Shown here: positions 4,521 through 13,151 of the stretch, piece after piece
Layout of the letters: the number at the start of each line of letters is the position of its first letter
Position numbering within the stretch: the stretch's first letter is position 1
Translations under genes and position numbers: made by a program
The notes under the pieces: generated by a model
Told to the model about the DNA's origin: nothing
Seen by the model: the letters and a program-made list of their open reading frames with translations, nothing else
Database searches by the model: none
From: Muricea muricata
Taxonomy: Eukaryota; Cnidaria; Anthozoa; Malacalcyonacea; Plexauridae
Assembly: GCA_963855995.1 (NCBI GenBank)
Contig: OY979718.1
Location: forward strand, 30,289,282-30,353,281
DNA: 64,000 nt
Reading direction: 5' to 3'

Positions 4521-7500
4521 AAAACAGCAACTTTTAGTTGGTGATTTGAGCATGTTTTTACGTTCAAATCGCTTCTAGAACGCTTAAAACGCGATTTTGA
4601 GTGTTCTAAGATCGTTTCTTTTCAAAGTACAAGAAATTTATAGGTTTCTCATTTCAACATGTCATTTCGCTCATCCCGTTGGTTTGAGGACCGAAAACCT
4701 GATTCCCGACTTGCTAAGTTCTGCAATTTCCATTTAGAAGGTATCTTTTAGGTCCATGATTGCGGTACATCATTGCGCTCAACTCGTTCACTTTAGCACT
4801 GAAAACATCAATTTAAGCTCTAAAACGTCACCCTGATGGATTTAAAACGGCGATTTTAAGTTGGTGATTTGAGCATGTTTTTACGCTCAAATCGCTTCTA
4901 GAATGCTTAAAACGCGATTTTGATGGTTCTAAGATCGTTTCTTCTCAGTTCACAAGTAAGCTCTACGTTTCTCATGTCAAGGTGTTATTTTGCTAATCTC
5001 GATGGTTTGAGAGCCGAAAATATGATTCCCGACATGCTTAGTTCTGCAATTTCAATTTAGAAGGTCTCTTTTAGGTCCGTGAATGCAGTACATCATTGCG
5101 CTCAACTCGTTTACTTTAGCACTGAAAACATCATTTTAAGCTCAAAAACGTCACCCTGATCGATTTAAAACGGCGATTTTAAGTTGGTGATTTGAGCATG
5201 TTTTCACGCTCAAATCGTTCTAGAACGGGTAAAACGCAATTTTTCTGGTTCTAAGATCGTTTCTTTTCAGTTTACAAGAGAGTTATAGGTTTCTCATGTC
5301 AACGGGTTACTTCGCTCATCTCGATAGTTTGGGCGCCAAAAACCTGATTCCCAACTTGCTAAGTTCTGCAATTTCCATTTATTAGGTCTCTTTTAGGTCC
5401 CTGATTGCAGTACATTATTGCGCTCAACTCGTTCACTTTAGCACTGAAAACATCATTTTAAGCTCTAAAACGTCACCCTGATCGATTTAAAACAGCAACT
5501 TTTCGTTGGTGATTTGAGCATGTTTTTACGTTCAAATCGCTTCTAGAGCGCTTAAAACGCGATTTTTATGGTTCTAAGATCGTTACTGTTCAGTGTACAA
5601 GCAAGTTATAGGTTTCTCATGTCAACGGGTTACTTCGCTCATCTCGATAGTTTGAGCGCCGAAAACTTGATTCCCGACTTGCTAAGTTCTGCAATTTCCA
5701 TTTATTGGGTCTCTTTTAGGTCCGTCATTGCAGTACATTATTGCGCTCAACTCGTTCACTTTAGCACTGAGAACATCATTTTAAGCTCTAAAACGTCACC
5801 CTGATCGATTTAAAACAGCAATTTTTAGTTGGTGATTTGAGCATGTTTTCACGCTCAAATCGTTCTAGAACAGGTAAAACGCAATTTTGATGGTTCTAAG
5901 ATCGTTTCTGTTAAGTTTACTAGAGAGTTTTCGGTTTCTCATGTCAACGGGTTACTTCGCTCATCTCGATAGATTGAGCGCCGAAAACATGATTCCCGAC
6001 TTGCTAAGTTCTGCAATTTCCATTTATTGTGTCTCTTTTAGGTCCGTCATTGCAGTACGTTATTGCGCTCAACTCGTTCACTTTAGCACTGAAAACATCA
6101 TTTTAAGCTCCAAAACGTCACCCTGATCGATTTAAAACAGCAATATTTAGTTGGTGATTTGAGCATGTTTTTACGTTCAAATCGCTTTTAGAGCGCTTAA
6201 AACGCGATTTTGATGGTTCTAAGATCGTTTCTTTTCTGCTTACAAGAAAGTTATAGGTTTCTCATTTCAACATGTCAATTCGCTCATCCCGATGGTTTGA
6301 GCGCCGAAAACCTGATTCCCGACTTGGTAAGTTTTGCAATTTCCATTTAGAAGGTCTCTTTTAGGTCCGTGATTGCAGTACATCATTTCGCTCAACTCGT
6401 TCACTTTAGCACTGAAAACATCATTTTAAGCTTTAAAACGTCGCCTTGATCGACATAAAACGGCGATTTTAAGTTGGTGATTTGAGCATGTTTTTACGCT
6501 CAAATCGCTTATAGAACAGTTAAAACGCAATTTTGATGGTTCTAAGATCGTTGCTGTTCAGTTTACTAGAAAGTTATAGGTTTCTCATGTCAACGGGTTA
6601 CTTCGCTCATCTCGATAGTTTGAGCGCCGAAAACATGATTCCCGACTTGCTAAGTTCTGCAATTTCCATTTATTGGGTCTCTTTTAGGTCCGTCATTGCA
6701 GTACATTATTGCGCTCAACTCGTTCACTTTAGCACTGAGAACATCATTTTAAGCTCTAAAACGTCACCCTGATCGATTTAAAACAGCAATTTTTAGTTGG
6801 TGATTTGAGCATGTTTTCACGCTCAAATCGTTCTAGAACAGGTAAAACGCAATTTTGATGGTTCTAAGATCGTTTCTGTTAAGTTTACTAGAGAGTTTTC
6901 GGTTTCTCATGTCAACGGGCTACTTCGCTCATCTCGATAGATTGAGCGCCGAAAACATGATTCCCGACTTGCTAAGTTCTGCAATTTCCATTTATTGTGT
7001 CTCTTTTAGGTCCGTCATTGCAGTACGTTATTGCGCTCAACTCGTTCACTTTAGCACTGAAAACATCATTTTAAGCTCTAAAACGTCACCCTGATCGATT
7101 TAAAACAGCAATATTTAGTTGGTGATTTGAGCATGTTTTTACGTTCAAATCGCTTTTAGAGCGCTTAAAACGCGATTTTGATTGTTCTAAGATCGTTTCT
7201 TTTCTGCTTACAAGAAAGTTATAGGTTTCTCATTTCAACATGTCAATTCGCTCATTCCGATGGTTTGAGCGTCGAAAACCTGATTCCGGCCTTGCTAAGT
7301 TCTGCAATTTCCATTTAGAAGGTCTCTTTTAGGTCCGTGATTGCAGTACATCATTTCGCTCAACTCGTTCACTTTAGCACTGAAAACATCATTTTAAGCT
7401 TTAAAACGTCACCTTGATCGACATAAAACGGCGATTTTAAGTTGGTGATTTGAGCATGTTTTAACGCTCAAATCGCTTCTAGAAGACTAAAAACGATATT

Positions 7501-10688: not shown

Positions 10689-10692
10689 TTAA
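10689..10692. repeat. Candidate target-site duplication TTAA, left
   Basis: The satellite reads normally to GCATGTTTTT, then AA and foreign sequence. The same TTAA lies at the right edge (12,501-12,504), and CGTTCAAATCG continues the monomer directly after it. Both edges carry one more A than the usual TTTTTACG. That suggests a single target reading TTTTTAACG that was duplicated on insertion. Confidence 0.6.
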
Positions 10693-10695
10693 GCC

Positions 10696-10721
10696 AATTT
10701 ATAATATCCGGATTATAAATT
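10696..10721. repeat. Palindrome at the left edge of the insert, 10-bp arms
   Basis: AATTTATAAT and ATTATAAATT are perfect inverted copies around the six bases ATCCGG. It begins three bases inside the left TTAA. A smaller hairpin sits three bases inside the right TTAA, so both ends may be marked by structure and not by a terminal inverted repeat. Confidence 0.75.
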
Positions 10722-10944
10722 AAAGTTAATGGAGAAATGCTGTTAACATTGTTCAATTGCAAAGTTCGTACATTTGTTGGAGATTTTCCAAGTGCGCGGA
10801 ATTTCACGTCGTGCGCAATTGTCAGTCATTAACCCAATGCATCAGCTATCACGCGCTGTGCACGATGCAAACATGTGCGCATCATGTCAAATGTAATCCA
10901 ACAACTAACAGACAGACAATATTGTCTTTGTTGACATTGATCAA
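10722..10944. other. Left part of the insert, no gene seen
   Basis: No convincing coding sequence. The only open frame (about 64 codons from 10,757) has an irregular Cys/His/Ser-rich product with no recognisable motif. GTGCGC occurs three times (10,792, 10,811 and 10,875), twice followed by AATT within four bases, which could be protein-binding sites or chance. Confidence 0.5.
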
Positions 10945-11005
10945 CCAATAGAAATAGTTTCCGTAGGATATAAACGGATGAGGCGCATTTATTAGGTATC
11001 AATTT
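10945..11005 (+). promoter_or_regulatory. Core-promoter-like set: CCAAT, TATAAA, initiator
   Basis: CCAAT lies at 10,945-10,949 and TATAAA at 10,969-10,974. TCAATTT, which fits the YYANWYY initiator consensus, lies at 10,999-11,005 with its A at 11,001, 32 bases after the first T of TATAAA. This is the spacing of an RNA polymerase II core promoter. It points towards the broken reading frame downstream. Whether it is active cannot be told from sequence. Confidence 0.5.
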
Positions 11006-11173
11006 GTTCTAAACTTGAGAGAGATACGATAGGGAGCACGAAATTGTTTCAATATTTGTCGAGCATTTATTTACATATTTTGTGACCTATTGCTTCGGAA
11101 TGCTTCCTGTTTCGTCATGAGAACTCTATAGAAAAGCTGGGAATAGTAAGAGCTCTAATACGAACGCGAATGA
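11006..11173 (+). other. Possible transcribed leader, no gene seen
   Basis: This lies between the promoter-like set and the open part of the decayed reading frame. It has stops in every forward frame and no structure that stands out. If the promoter is real, this would be 5' untranslated sequence. Confidence 0.35.
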
Positions 11174-11757
11174 TACGGCAAGTCTTCAGCGTCTCTGTGT
11201 CGTCTGTGTCGAGAAGGGGTTGCCAAGCCACGAAACATCTTAATTTCACGGCTCGAGAAACACGCAGCTATTTCGACGCCGACGGTGGTGAGTAATAATA
11301 CGATATCGCAACAGCCTGACGATACTCGATCATCTCTACTTTCGGAAGACCAGTTGGCGCAAATACAGACAATTTCTACCCGCAGCGTCGAAGAATTGGT
11401 GGCAGAAATAGCGGGCAATGAGGCCCGTGCTACAGTCGAACCATGTCCAACTCGCAACCTCAATGAAATATAAGAACAGCAGCAATCCTGTTATTGCCAT
11501 TCGCGACGAAAACGAGGTCGGTACAACAGACATTTCAATGACCCCAACGTCAAACGTGGTACCTCAAAGCGATCGACCGGGAGAGAGCGTGCCGTATGGT
11601 AATAATTGTCATTAGGTTCCCGGGGCCATATTTCAAGAAAATTCATGCAGGCGGGTGAGATTTTTTGTTTTGTCTAAGCAACTGCCTAAGAGCATTTCGA
11701 CAAATAACCAACCAGACGATGCCCTAGTATTGACAAGAATTTCTTAAAAGAAAATGT
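11174..11757 (+). pseudogene. Decayed reading frame, transposable-element-like N-terminal protein fragment
   Basis: One forward frame is open from 11,174 to a TAA at 11,471. From about 11,285 it gives a plausible protein start region with a Ser/Gln/Asp-rich stretch and then an amphipathic helix-like part (SEDQLAQIQTI, then SVEELVAEIAG). A second frame overlaps from 11,418 and continues to 11,757, broken only by a TAG at 11,613-11,615. After that stop it reads LSKQLPKSISTNNQPDDALV, which again looks like real protein. The simplest reading is one coding sequence with a frameshift between about 11,418 and 11,470 and one nonsense mutation. A polar N-terminus, a helix and then an LSK-LPK stretch reminds me of gag-like or recombinase-associated proteins of invertebrate retroelements, but no catalytic domain is present, so the family is a guess. 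No ATG is clearly the start. A 102-codon frame on the minus strand (11,463-11,155) is the alternative; its product has no recognisable feature. Confidence 0.4.
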
Positions 11758-11820
11758 TTCATTGTAAGATTCAAACCGGCTTAGGTGAAACAGATTTAAA
11801 ACGCATCATAAATATATGTC
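11758..11820. other. Short non-coding stretch before the A run
   Basis: An AT-rich stretch after the end of the broken frame. CATAAA at 11,807-11,812, nine bases before the A15 run, resembles a variant polyadenylation signal. With the A run it could mark the 3' end of a retroposed RNA, but the upstream promoter-like set argues against a simple processed copy. Confidence 0.3.
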
Positions 11821-11835
11821 AAAAAAAAAAAAAAA
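11821..11835 (+). repeat. A15 homopolymer
   Basis: Fifteen consecutive A bases, the only such run in the window. It is either a simple repeat or the remnant of a poly(A) tail dividing the insert into a left, coding-remnant part and a right, hairpin-rich part. Confidence 0.9.
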
Positions 11836-12097
11836 TGCTAGCATGGTCAGCTGCGCTTGCCGCATTGCCAATGGTTTGATCACATAATTGTAATATAGAA
11901 GCTTTGTGGGGAAGCTGCTGGTAATTGTCATGGCCCCATCCAGGTTTCCTGTCTTTCAGGTTTTTCCCGGCCTTCCTGATGATCCAGCTGTAGTATAACC
12001 AATGGCAGTGCTCAAACACAGGCCTTACCATCGCCGGCTAAAGCTGTCTACTATACGATTACAGCTATTGTGGGAGCTGGGTTGCTCGTCTATGGGG
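11836..12097. other. Middle of the insert, no gene seen
   Basis: No protein with recognisable motifs in any frame. The longest is a 70-codon minus-strand frame (12,031-11,819) that ends in a run of Phe from the A15 tract, so it is unlikely to be real. CAGGTTTCCTG and TCAGGTTTTTCC (about 11,941-11,968) are close direct repeats. Confidence 0.4.
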
Positions 12098-12116
12098 AAT
12101 ACACATTCTGTGTATT
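12098..12116. other. Perfect hairpin, 8-bp stem
   Basis: AATACACA (12,098-12,105) and TGTGTATT (12,109-12,116) are exact inverted copies around TTC. It is the first of the series of hairpins in the right part of the insert. Confidence 0.7.
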
Positions 12117-12194
12117 TGTGGGGTTGAAGTGCTCCTAATGATCACTTTCTGGCCATAGACTCACATTATTTATTGTAAATATATATTCCATGCA

Positions 12195-12207
12195 AGTTCT
12201 AGGAACT
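12195..12207. other. Small hairpin, 5-bp stem
   Basis: AGTTC and GAACT pair around TAG. Its last two bases are also the first two of the next stem-loop, so the hairpins abut with no spacer. Confidence 0.55.
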
Positions 12208-12236
12208 GTCAGAGGGGATTGTAACCCCTTGGACAG
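12206..12236. other. Core stem-loop 1 of 3 (outer stem CTGTC/GACAG)
   Basis: The 15-base core GGGGATTGTAACCCC (12,214-12,228) can fold by its GGGG/CCCC ends. It sits inside a 5-bp perfect outer stem, CTGTC (12,206-12,210) with GACAG (12,232-12,236). Three unpaired bases lie on each side (AGA and TTG). Confidence 0.75.
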
Positions 12237-12239
12237 GTT

Positions 12240-12272
12240 AATGTTATGGGGGATTGTAACCCCTCTAACATT
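12240..12272. other. Core stem-loop 2 of 3 (outer stem AATGTTA/TAACATT)
   Basis: The same 15-base core, at 12,249-12,263, sits inside a 7-bp perfect outer stem, AATGTTA (12,240-12,246) with TAACATT (12,266-12,272). Two bases lie on each side. The outer stem has a different sequence from unit 1, while the core is identical. Confidence 0.78.
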
Positions 12273-12300
12273 GCCTGATGGGGATTGTAACCCCAAGGCA
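12272..12300. other. Core stem-loop 3 of 3 (outer stem TGCCT/AGGCA)
   Basis: A third identical core, at 12,280-12,294, sits inside TGCCT (12,272-12,276) and AGGCA (12,296-12,300), with GAT on the left and a single A on the right. It shares its first base with the end of unit 2. Core starts are 35 and 31 bases apart. Confidence 0.75.
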
Positions 12301-12308
12301 TCCAGTCG

Positions 12309-12337
12309 CCTAGCGGGCATATATACACCCCGCTAGG
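12309..12337. other. Hairpin with 9-bp perfect GC-rich stem and TATATA loop
   Basis: CCTAGCGGG (12,309-12,317) pairs exactly with CCCGCTAGG (12,329-12,337) around the 11-base loop CATATATACAC. It is the strongest hairpin in the window and follows the three core stem-loops by eight bases. The loop could also serve as a TATA box with the three cores as upstream sites. I see no Rho-independent-type T tract after it. Confidence 0.8.
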
Positions 12338-12482
12338 TTATACAAGCTTGCATATTTATGAGTCTATGATAACACTAACAATGCTATGTAATCAATTTTT
12401 TACTACCGGAGTACTTCACCCTCAACGACCCATCTCTCCCACACAATTACTTGTTTGTCTGTTTTGTTGTCGTAGCGGTCAA
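12338..12482. other. Right part of the insert, no gene seen
   Basis: A mixed AT-rich stretch with no gene or repeat that I can support. A forward frame running into the satellite from 12,348 (79 codons) ends with satellite-encoded residues and is not a gene. Confidence 0.45.
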
Positions 12483-12497
12483 ATCAAAAGCTTTGAT
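12483..12497. other. Hairpin at the right edge of the insert
   Basis: ATCAAA and TTTGAT pair around AGC, three bases inside the right TTAA. It mirrors the placement, though not the sequence, of the palindrome at the left edge. Confidence 0.5.
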
Positions 12498-12500
12498 ACA

Positions 12501-12504
12501 TTAA
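12501..12504. repeat. Candidate target-site duplication TTAA, right
   Basis: This is the right partner of 10,689-10,692. The satellite resumes at once as CGTTCAAATCGCTTCTAGAA, in the same GAGTGTTC monomer type whose first part precedes the insert, so no satellite bases appear to be lost. Confidence 0.6.
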
Positions 12505-13151
12505 CGTTCAAATCGCTTCTAGAACGCTTAAAACGCGATTTTGAGTGTTCTAAGATCGTTTCTTTTCAGTGTACAAGCAAGTTATAGGTTTCTCATTTCA
12601 ACATGTCATTTCACTCATCCCGTTGGTTTGAGGATCGAAAACCTGATTCCCGACTTGCTAAGTTCTGCAATTTCCATTTAGAAGGTCTCTTTTAGGTCCA
12701 TGATTGCGGTACATCATTGCGCTCAACTCGTTCACTTTAGCACTGAAAACATCAATTTAAGCTCTAAAACGTCACCCTGATGGATTTAAAACGGCGATTT
12801 TAAGTTGGTGATTTGAGCATGTTTTTACGCTCAAATCGCTTCTAGAACACTTAAAACGCAATTTTGCTGGTTCTAAGATCGTTTCTTTTCAGTTTACAAG
12901 AGAGTTATAGGTTTCTCATGTCAACGGGTTACTTCGCTCATCTCGATAGTTTGAGCGCCGAAAACCTGATTCCCGACTTCCAAAGTTCTGCAATTTCCAT
13001 CTATTAGGTCTCACTTAGGTCCGTGATTGCAGTACATTATTGCGCTCAACTCGTTCACTTTAGCACTGAAAACATCATTTTAAGCTCTAAAACGTCACCC
13101 TGATCGATTTAAAACAGCAATTTTTCGTTGGCGATTTGAGCATGTTTTTAC

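Follow-up and report, generated by a model that had tools for sequence, protein, structure and literature searches.

A 15-base sequence, GGGGATTGTAACCCC, occurs three times without change within 81 bases of the + strand (12214-12228, 12249-12263, and 12280-12294) in a 64,000-nucleotide stretch of Muricea muricata DNA, referred to here as the window, and each copy forms the tip of a predicted hairpin. The earlier note on this DNA had described both this triplicated core and its three differing, self-pairing outer stems, and both are confirmed, the core by a scan of the window that found no further match at two or fewer mismatches (expected matches 0.01). The folding of the cluster into three hairpins is well supported by the computed structures, a chance origin of three hairpins with a shared tip is unlikely, and the cluster lies in what is, on good support, a foreign insert in a satellite array. 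Our tentative reading, which we hold as possible, is that the hairpins act in cis as a folded segment of a non-autonomous mobile element.

Sequence and structure of the hairpin cluster

Every core comprises a four-pair GGGG/CCCC neck and a seven-base loop, ATTGTAA, around which outer stems of five to seven pairs differ from unit to unit. Hairpin 1 (12206-12236, + strand) pairs CTGTC (12206-12210) with GACAG (12232-12236), followed by an A/G mismatch, an inner stem GAGGGG/CCCCTT with one G-U pair, and the ATTGTAA loop; its predicted RNA energy is -16.0 kcal/mol, and 1 of 200 shuffles folds as well. In hairpin 2 (12240-12272, + strand; -13.2 kcal/mol as RNA, 2/200 shuffles as good), the outer stem AATGTTA (12240-12246)/TAACATT (12266-12272) is followed by a T/C mismatch and by the inner stem GGGGG/CCCCT, again with one G-U pair, below the same loop. 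Hairpin 3 (12272-12300, + strand; -13.7 kcal/mol as RNA, 1/200 shuffles as good) has the outer stem TGCCT (12272-12276)/AGGCA (12296-12300), a two-base GA bulge, and the inner stem TGGGG/CCCCA, likewise closed by ATTGTAA. The units are adjacent, as previously described, but the simple abutment that had been given for units 2 and 3 does not hold, since both claim base 12272, which the RNA fold of the cluster assigns to unit 2 and the DNA fold to unit 3. The G-U pairs of units 1 and 2, one each on the + strand, become C/A on the opposite strand, and the summed hairpin energies of the two strands (-42.9 versus -41.8 kcal/mol) favor neither. The cores are spaced by 35 and 31 bases; as neither is a multiple of 3, and as the window holds no open reading frame of at least 120 aa, the cluster is taken not to be coding.

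The earlier note had proposed a comparison of folding energy with shuffled sequence, and in that comparison a 151-nt segment around the cluster folded better than all 200 shuffles both as RNA (z -5.43) and as DNA (z -5.75). A longer fold of 246 bases gave z -5.13 for one RNA strand, -6.15 for the other, and -5.85 for DNA. Because the core itself supplies much of the folding energy, the flanks were tested separately: when they alone were shuffled around fixed cores, 3 of 500 sequences folded as well. An outer stem, defined as at least five Watson-Crick pairs starting no more than three bases from the core, was formed by 1.36% of random flanks; of 20,000 random triples, 0 carried one in all three units. 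A natural control was provided by a scan of IMG/VR viral contigs, which returned 34 stretches with one core each that were treated as chance occurrences; an outer stem was present in 1 of the 34, several of whose flanks are identical, so that the independent number is below 34.

Further structure surrounds the three units. A fourth hairpin (12309-12337, + strand), formed by CCTAGCGGG and CCCGCTAGG around an 11-base loop, has an RNA energy of -15.3 kcal/mol that 0 of 200 shuffles equaled, and is part of the same cluster, yet unlike units 1-3 in sequence. The whole is enclosed by a perfect 10-base inverted repeat on the + strand, with CATAGACTCA (12154-12163) as its left arm and TGAGTCTATG (12359-12368) as its right arm, between which are nested two seven-base pairings, 12176-12182 with 12352-12358 and 12190-12196 with 12347-12353, whose right sides share two bases. 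The tests of this enclosing repeat disagree, and it is best regarded as suggestive. A repeat of at least 10 bases appeared in 31 of 5,000 flank shuffles, and 40 of 5,000 Markov controls matched the gapped alignment score of the enclosure. A further alignment test, on the terminal 50 bases, was equaled by 111 of 2,000 controls, and the flanks of the cluster contributed no significant extra folding energy (63/500 as good).

In the insert, where 0.22 occurrences of the loop heptamer ATTGTAA would be expected, there are six, half of them within the cores and all on the + strand, an enrichment observed post hoc; the rest of the window contains none on either strand. The copies beyond the hairpins stand at 11761, 11887, and 12172, all on the + strand. 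Further palindromes are present in the right part of the insert at 12098-12116 and 12339-12354.

The insert and its satellite surroundings

According to Tandem Repeats Finder, positions 1-63995 of the window are a 323-base satellite present in 197.6 copies with 84% matches; several monomer variants are interspersed in the array. The satellite, the borders of the insert, the fourth hairpin, and the enclosing inverted repeat add to the earlier note, which mentions the insert only where it says what would refute its claim. The sole stretch of at least 10 bases left uncovered by a satellite-unit probe is 10690-12500, and the insert that interrupts the array there, of about 1.8 kb, is placed at 10692-12503 with borders good to a few bases (10692-12502 was used in computations). 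A strict pattern recovered 125 satellite units at the insertion spot, in the forms TTTTCACGC (43), TTTTTACGT (39), TTTTAACGC (29), TTTTTACGC (13), and TTTTAACCC (1), and the satellite provides GTTTTTACGTTC as a candidate empty site. Five Ts stand to the left of the insert and CGTTC to its right, flanks that agree with TTTTTACGT, the form of 39 of the 125 units, plus one extra A, so that the insert would begin near 10692 and end near 12503. Around these borders a single direct repeat of at least four bases is present, TTAA. This tetranucleotide is present in 30 of the 125 satellite sites, with four Ts and another right side, so that a TTAA duplication would require a site form absent from the 125.

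The insert as a whole lacks terminal inverted repeats, the score of its terminal 50 bases being matched by 1,838 of 2,000 controls. Two palindromes on the + strand lie just inside its borders: AATTTATAAT-ATCCGG-ATTATAAATT (10696-10721; 10-6-10), about four bases inside the left border, and ATCAAA-AGC-TTTGAT (12483-12497; 6-3-6), about six bases inside the right one. The former, with its 10-base arms and 6-base center, has what we take to be the shape of a tyrosine-recombinase core site.

Base composition divides the insert in two. The left part (10692-11833) has a CpG observed/expected ratio of 1.33, near that of the satellite (1.36), and terminates in an A-run, while the right part (11834-12502), which holds the hairpins, has a ratio of 0.43 with TpG+CpA at 1.28; the cut at the A-run was placed after inspection of a 300-base profile. 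Given this contrast the insert looks like the product of two histories, whether two insertions or a patchwork, and may not be a single element. Neither part is flanked by a duplication of at least four bases within six bases of its assumed borders. The left part was considered as a retroposed copy and rejected, as it has the A-run but no target duplication of at least four bases. Around 10945-10975 it shows, by eye, a CCAAT together with a TATA-like stretch, and it has a 99-aa stop-free stretch (11174-11473) without ATG and without a Pfam match.

The 12 stop-to-stop stretches scanned against Pfam, out of the 33 in the insert, gave one match, at E 0.13 and below the cut-off. A tRNA scan of the window returned 0 hits, and Rfam at gathering scores 0 matches in the 64 kb. 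A lax Rfam search of the insert gave three matches, the best at E 1.1 and all far below the cut-offs, among them a CRISPR repeat model over 12243-12291 (E 2.8).

Evidence for selection on the paired stems

The earlier note had taken the pairing of the stems around a constant core as the mark of selection on a folded molecule, and of this the folding into hairpins stands, whereas selection is plausible, the paired changes being too few to prove it. The counted alignment of the three units contains a single double-sided pair change, a score that 169 of 500 shuffles attain; with unit 3 anchored by eye, two pairs at most are double-changed. The similarity of the outer left arms falls within chance: among 50,000 random triples, 5,638 (11%) were as similar, and homology of the outer arms is not supported. 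The MAFFT alignment of the units misplaces one base of unit 3, which weakens the covariation count, the arm comparison, and the results of the covariance model alike. The argument for selection from paired changes is a weak one.

The best sign of constraint comes from a different comparison. In the gapless alignment of units 1 and 2, all 15 core bases agree, as against 8 of the 16 flank bases, a contrast that hints at constraint on the core. The same alignment goes against the statement that plain duplication would have copied the stems along with the core: with half of the flank bases still alike, duplication followed by divergence is possible.

A mutational route to paired stems is also known. 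Template switching at replication can produce perfect stems in a single event, with no selection on each change, and can fix the pairing of a stem while the loop sequence is retained (PMC8794818). The cluster resembles template-switch hairpins in that paired stems flank an unchanged loop, and differs in that the changes described there are reconstructed along lineages, whereas the cluster is known from one locus without a history.

The proposed covariance model could be built from the three units, and in a search of the window it refound the same three on the + strand and two of them on the - strand. Its discrimination is poor: over 41 fetched loci, all preselected by the core or half-cores, it gave 42 matches, the best of which (30.0 bits, locus L031) exceeds the score of unit 3 itself (28.5 bits).

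Searches beyond the window and look-alike sequences

Searches of IMG/VR, GTDB, and phage and plasmid sequences found no second copy of the insert or of the cluster. A two-core scan of GTDB genomes returned 0 matches, and a scan for two half-cores, with GGGGATTGTAA required twice, returned seven stretches, from bacteria or archaea, all of which lacked a full core. Two translated pieces of the insert gave 48 and 19 pattern matches in IMG/VR, none of which was confirmed as a relative, and the insert compared with phages and plasmids in distant mode (E no greater than 0.01) gave no match. Two satellite strings had 0 matches each in IMG/VR. The core and satellite strings found no match in the literature under the searches made, nor did a literature search on Helentron stem-loops and double-hairpin elements.

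Two bacterial look-alikes emerged. In an uncultured Clostridia contig (L035), a 362-aa open reading frame on the - strand (5638-6726) encodes GYNPPQ repeats, and its coding DNA mimics tandem GGGATTGTAACCC hairpins; by eye, the product has the look of a membrane protein. In a rumen Clostridiales contig (L041), a 26-base tandem hairpin repeat (280-331) consists of two copies of GTGGGGGATTGTAACCCAC and has GGGGATTGTAACCC in common with the cluster, but it is bacterial and its two copies are identical, stems included; the likeness is probably convergent. The segment 278-400, in which the two 26-base copies lie, has a 15-base perfect inverted repeat and is possibly a bacterial miniature element; one plasmid gave a 27-base match (E 0.4). 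Since the units of the window are unlike these in both frame and stem, neither look-alike explains the cluster.

Comparison with known elements and structured RNAs

Clusters of comparable architecture exist among structured RNAs. The iron-responsive element has a CAGUGN loop and a bulged C, and the iron-responsive elements of the transferrin-receptor mRNA comprise several hairpins that keep one loop, an upper stem, and a bulge or mismatch over lower stems of free sequence. The cluster is alike in all these features of layout, with several hairpins, a kept loop, upper stem, and bulge or mismatch, and free lower stems. Unlike those elements, it has an ATTGTAA loop on a GGGG/CCCC neck and matches no Rfam family at the gathering score, and identity with an iron-responsive element was rejected because the loop is not CAGUGN with a bulged C. 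A hammerhead ribozyme was likewise set aside by eye: a CTGATG-like string is present, but no GAAA follows the stem.

Among mobile elements, the closest resemblance is to the Helitron2 group. Helitron2 carries a hairpin at each end and terminal inverted repeats that are asymmetric, with T-rich tetranucleotide targets favored in Chlamydomonas (PMC3627910), and the HINE, a non-autonomous Helentron, has subterminal repeats, a 3' palindrome, and insertion within TT or T-rich sequence (PMC4067079). The insert is similar in having a palindrome near each end, although these palindromes are short and weak evidence, and in its T-rich target, its want of conventional inverted ends, and its want of recognizable coding capacity. 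Internal tandem repeats are also tolerated in elements of this kind. In contrast to HINE, the insertion point is T/A or A/C in GTTTTTACGTTC; as the right flank starts no earlier than ACGTTC, the site is not within TT, though T-rich. The paired repeats of these elements were sought in both orientations. The left 40 bases of the insert, compared with 12403-12502, gave a direct score that 1,251 of 2,000 controls equaled and an inverted score that 1,849 equaled. In the reverse orientation, GTTAATG (10725-10731) and CATTAAC (12499-12505) agree over seven bases, two of which are probably host, and 239 of 5,000 shuffles do as well. No trace of Rep or helicase was found among the translated pieces of the insert that were scanned. 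The insert is therefore not assigned to Helitron2 or HINE: its ends are reminiscent of these elements, but the site is not TT, and for the paired repeats one orientation gave nothing and the other a seven-base match.

Other classes were discarded on similar grounds. For a DNA transposon with terminal inverted repeats, or a MITE, spanning the whole insert, the inverted ends are absent (1,838/2,000 controls as good). Kolobok and piggyBac elements agree with the TTAA flank but not with the missing inverted ends, and a Crypton would entail a TTAA exchange at a site form absent from the 125 satellite units.

Proposed explanation and alternatives

In the proposed mobile-element model, each unit would fold into a hairpin whenever the element is present as a single strand, be it a transcript or a DNA intermediate. 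A partner would recognize the kept part, made up of the GGGG/CCCC neck and its ATTGTAA loop, while the outer stem would act as a clamp whose sequence is free provided that the pairing holds; three copies side by side would allow multivalent binding. Mobility, recognition in single-stranded form, the partner, and pairing kept by selection in an element family would all be presumptive components of this model. A solitary copy within a satellite would probably escape selection, so that any selection on pairing may have acted earlier, in the element family, before this copy inserted. Possible roles of the cluster, as the earlier note had suggested, include a transcript end, a transposition or replication site, and a binding site.

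The improbability of the hairpins, the position of the insert within a satellite, and the candidate empty site support the mobile-element model. The contrast between core and flank identity in units 1 and 2 also counts in its favor, as do the further pairing within these 215 bases, in the fourth hairpin and in the inverted repeat around the cluster, the excess of ATTGTAA, and the noncoding character of the cluster. On the other hand, the insert has no inverted ends, no recognizable domain among the pieces scanned, and parts of unequal CpG content, the pair changes are too few to prove selection, the outer arms are not demonstrably related, and the energies favor neither strand. A narrower and rather remote version of the model is that the insert is of an unplaced mobile-element kind, a new non-autonomous family in which a triple RNA or single-stranded DNA hairpin array with one kept loop would serve an external partner in packaging, in priming, or as a guide scaffold; one speculative form of such an array would be the scaffold RNA of a Fanzor-type nuclease.

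A somewhat less likely alternative is that the cluster arose by mutation without any function, a hairpin having been duplicated and template switching having made its stems paired and kept them so. The creation of perfect stems in one event and the fixing of stems with a retained loop are described for template switching (PMC8794818), the other palindromes of the right part (12309-12337, 12098-12116, and 12339-12354) are in keeping with it, and units 1 and 2 do align gaplessly; on its own, however, it leaves the 15/15 identity of the core against 8/16 in the flanks unexplained. A triple site bound by a protein in double-stranded form, with the dyad GGGG-N7-CCCC being read and the outer stems mere extensions or incidental, appears improbable: although a symmetric 15-mer perfectly kept in three close copies and the three additional ATTGTAA motifs of the insert would suit it, it does not account for paired yet differing stems, which no random triple (0/20,000) and one core elsewhere (1/34) displayed. 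More doubtful still is that 12154-12368, 215 bases in all, constitutes a nested foldback or miniature inverted-repeat element with the hairpins as its internal palindromes. Its perfect 10-base repeat and the two nested pairing pieces at its ends invite this interpretation, but no duplication of at least four bases flanks it within six bases of its borders, and neither the inverted-repeat score (111/2,000) nor the closure of the fold (63/500) is exceptional. Lastly, a remnant of a tandem coding repeat on the other strand, modeled on the GYNPPQ repeats of the Clostridia contig, where a look-alike array does sit in a 362-aa minus-strand frame, is scarcely credible, as units spaced 35 and 31 bases apart fall into different frames, the minus frames read GLQSP, GVTIP, GLQSP and GYNP, GLQSP, GYNP, and the longest minus-strand stop-free stretch listed over the cluster spans 65 aa.

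The significance of the mobile-element model depends on relatives of the cluster in which the core is kept and the stems are changed in pairs. Short of these, the locus illustrates how paired stems at one site can suggest selection and yet be unable to prove it. Given such relatives, the three hairpins would form a compact array that acts in cis within a mobile element, and, because three units of different stem sequence sit side by side, they would offer a natural setting in which selection on structure could be told apart from repair by template switching.
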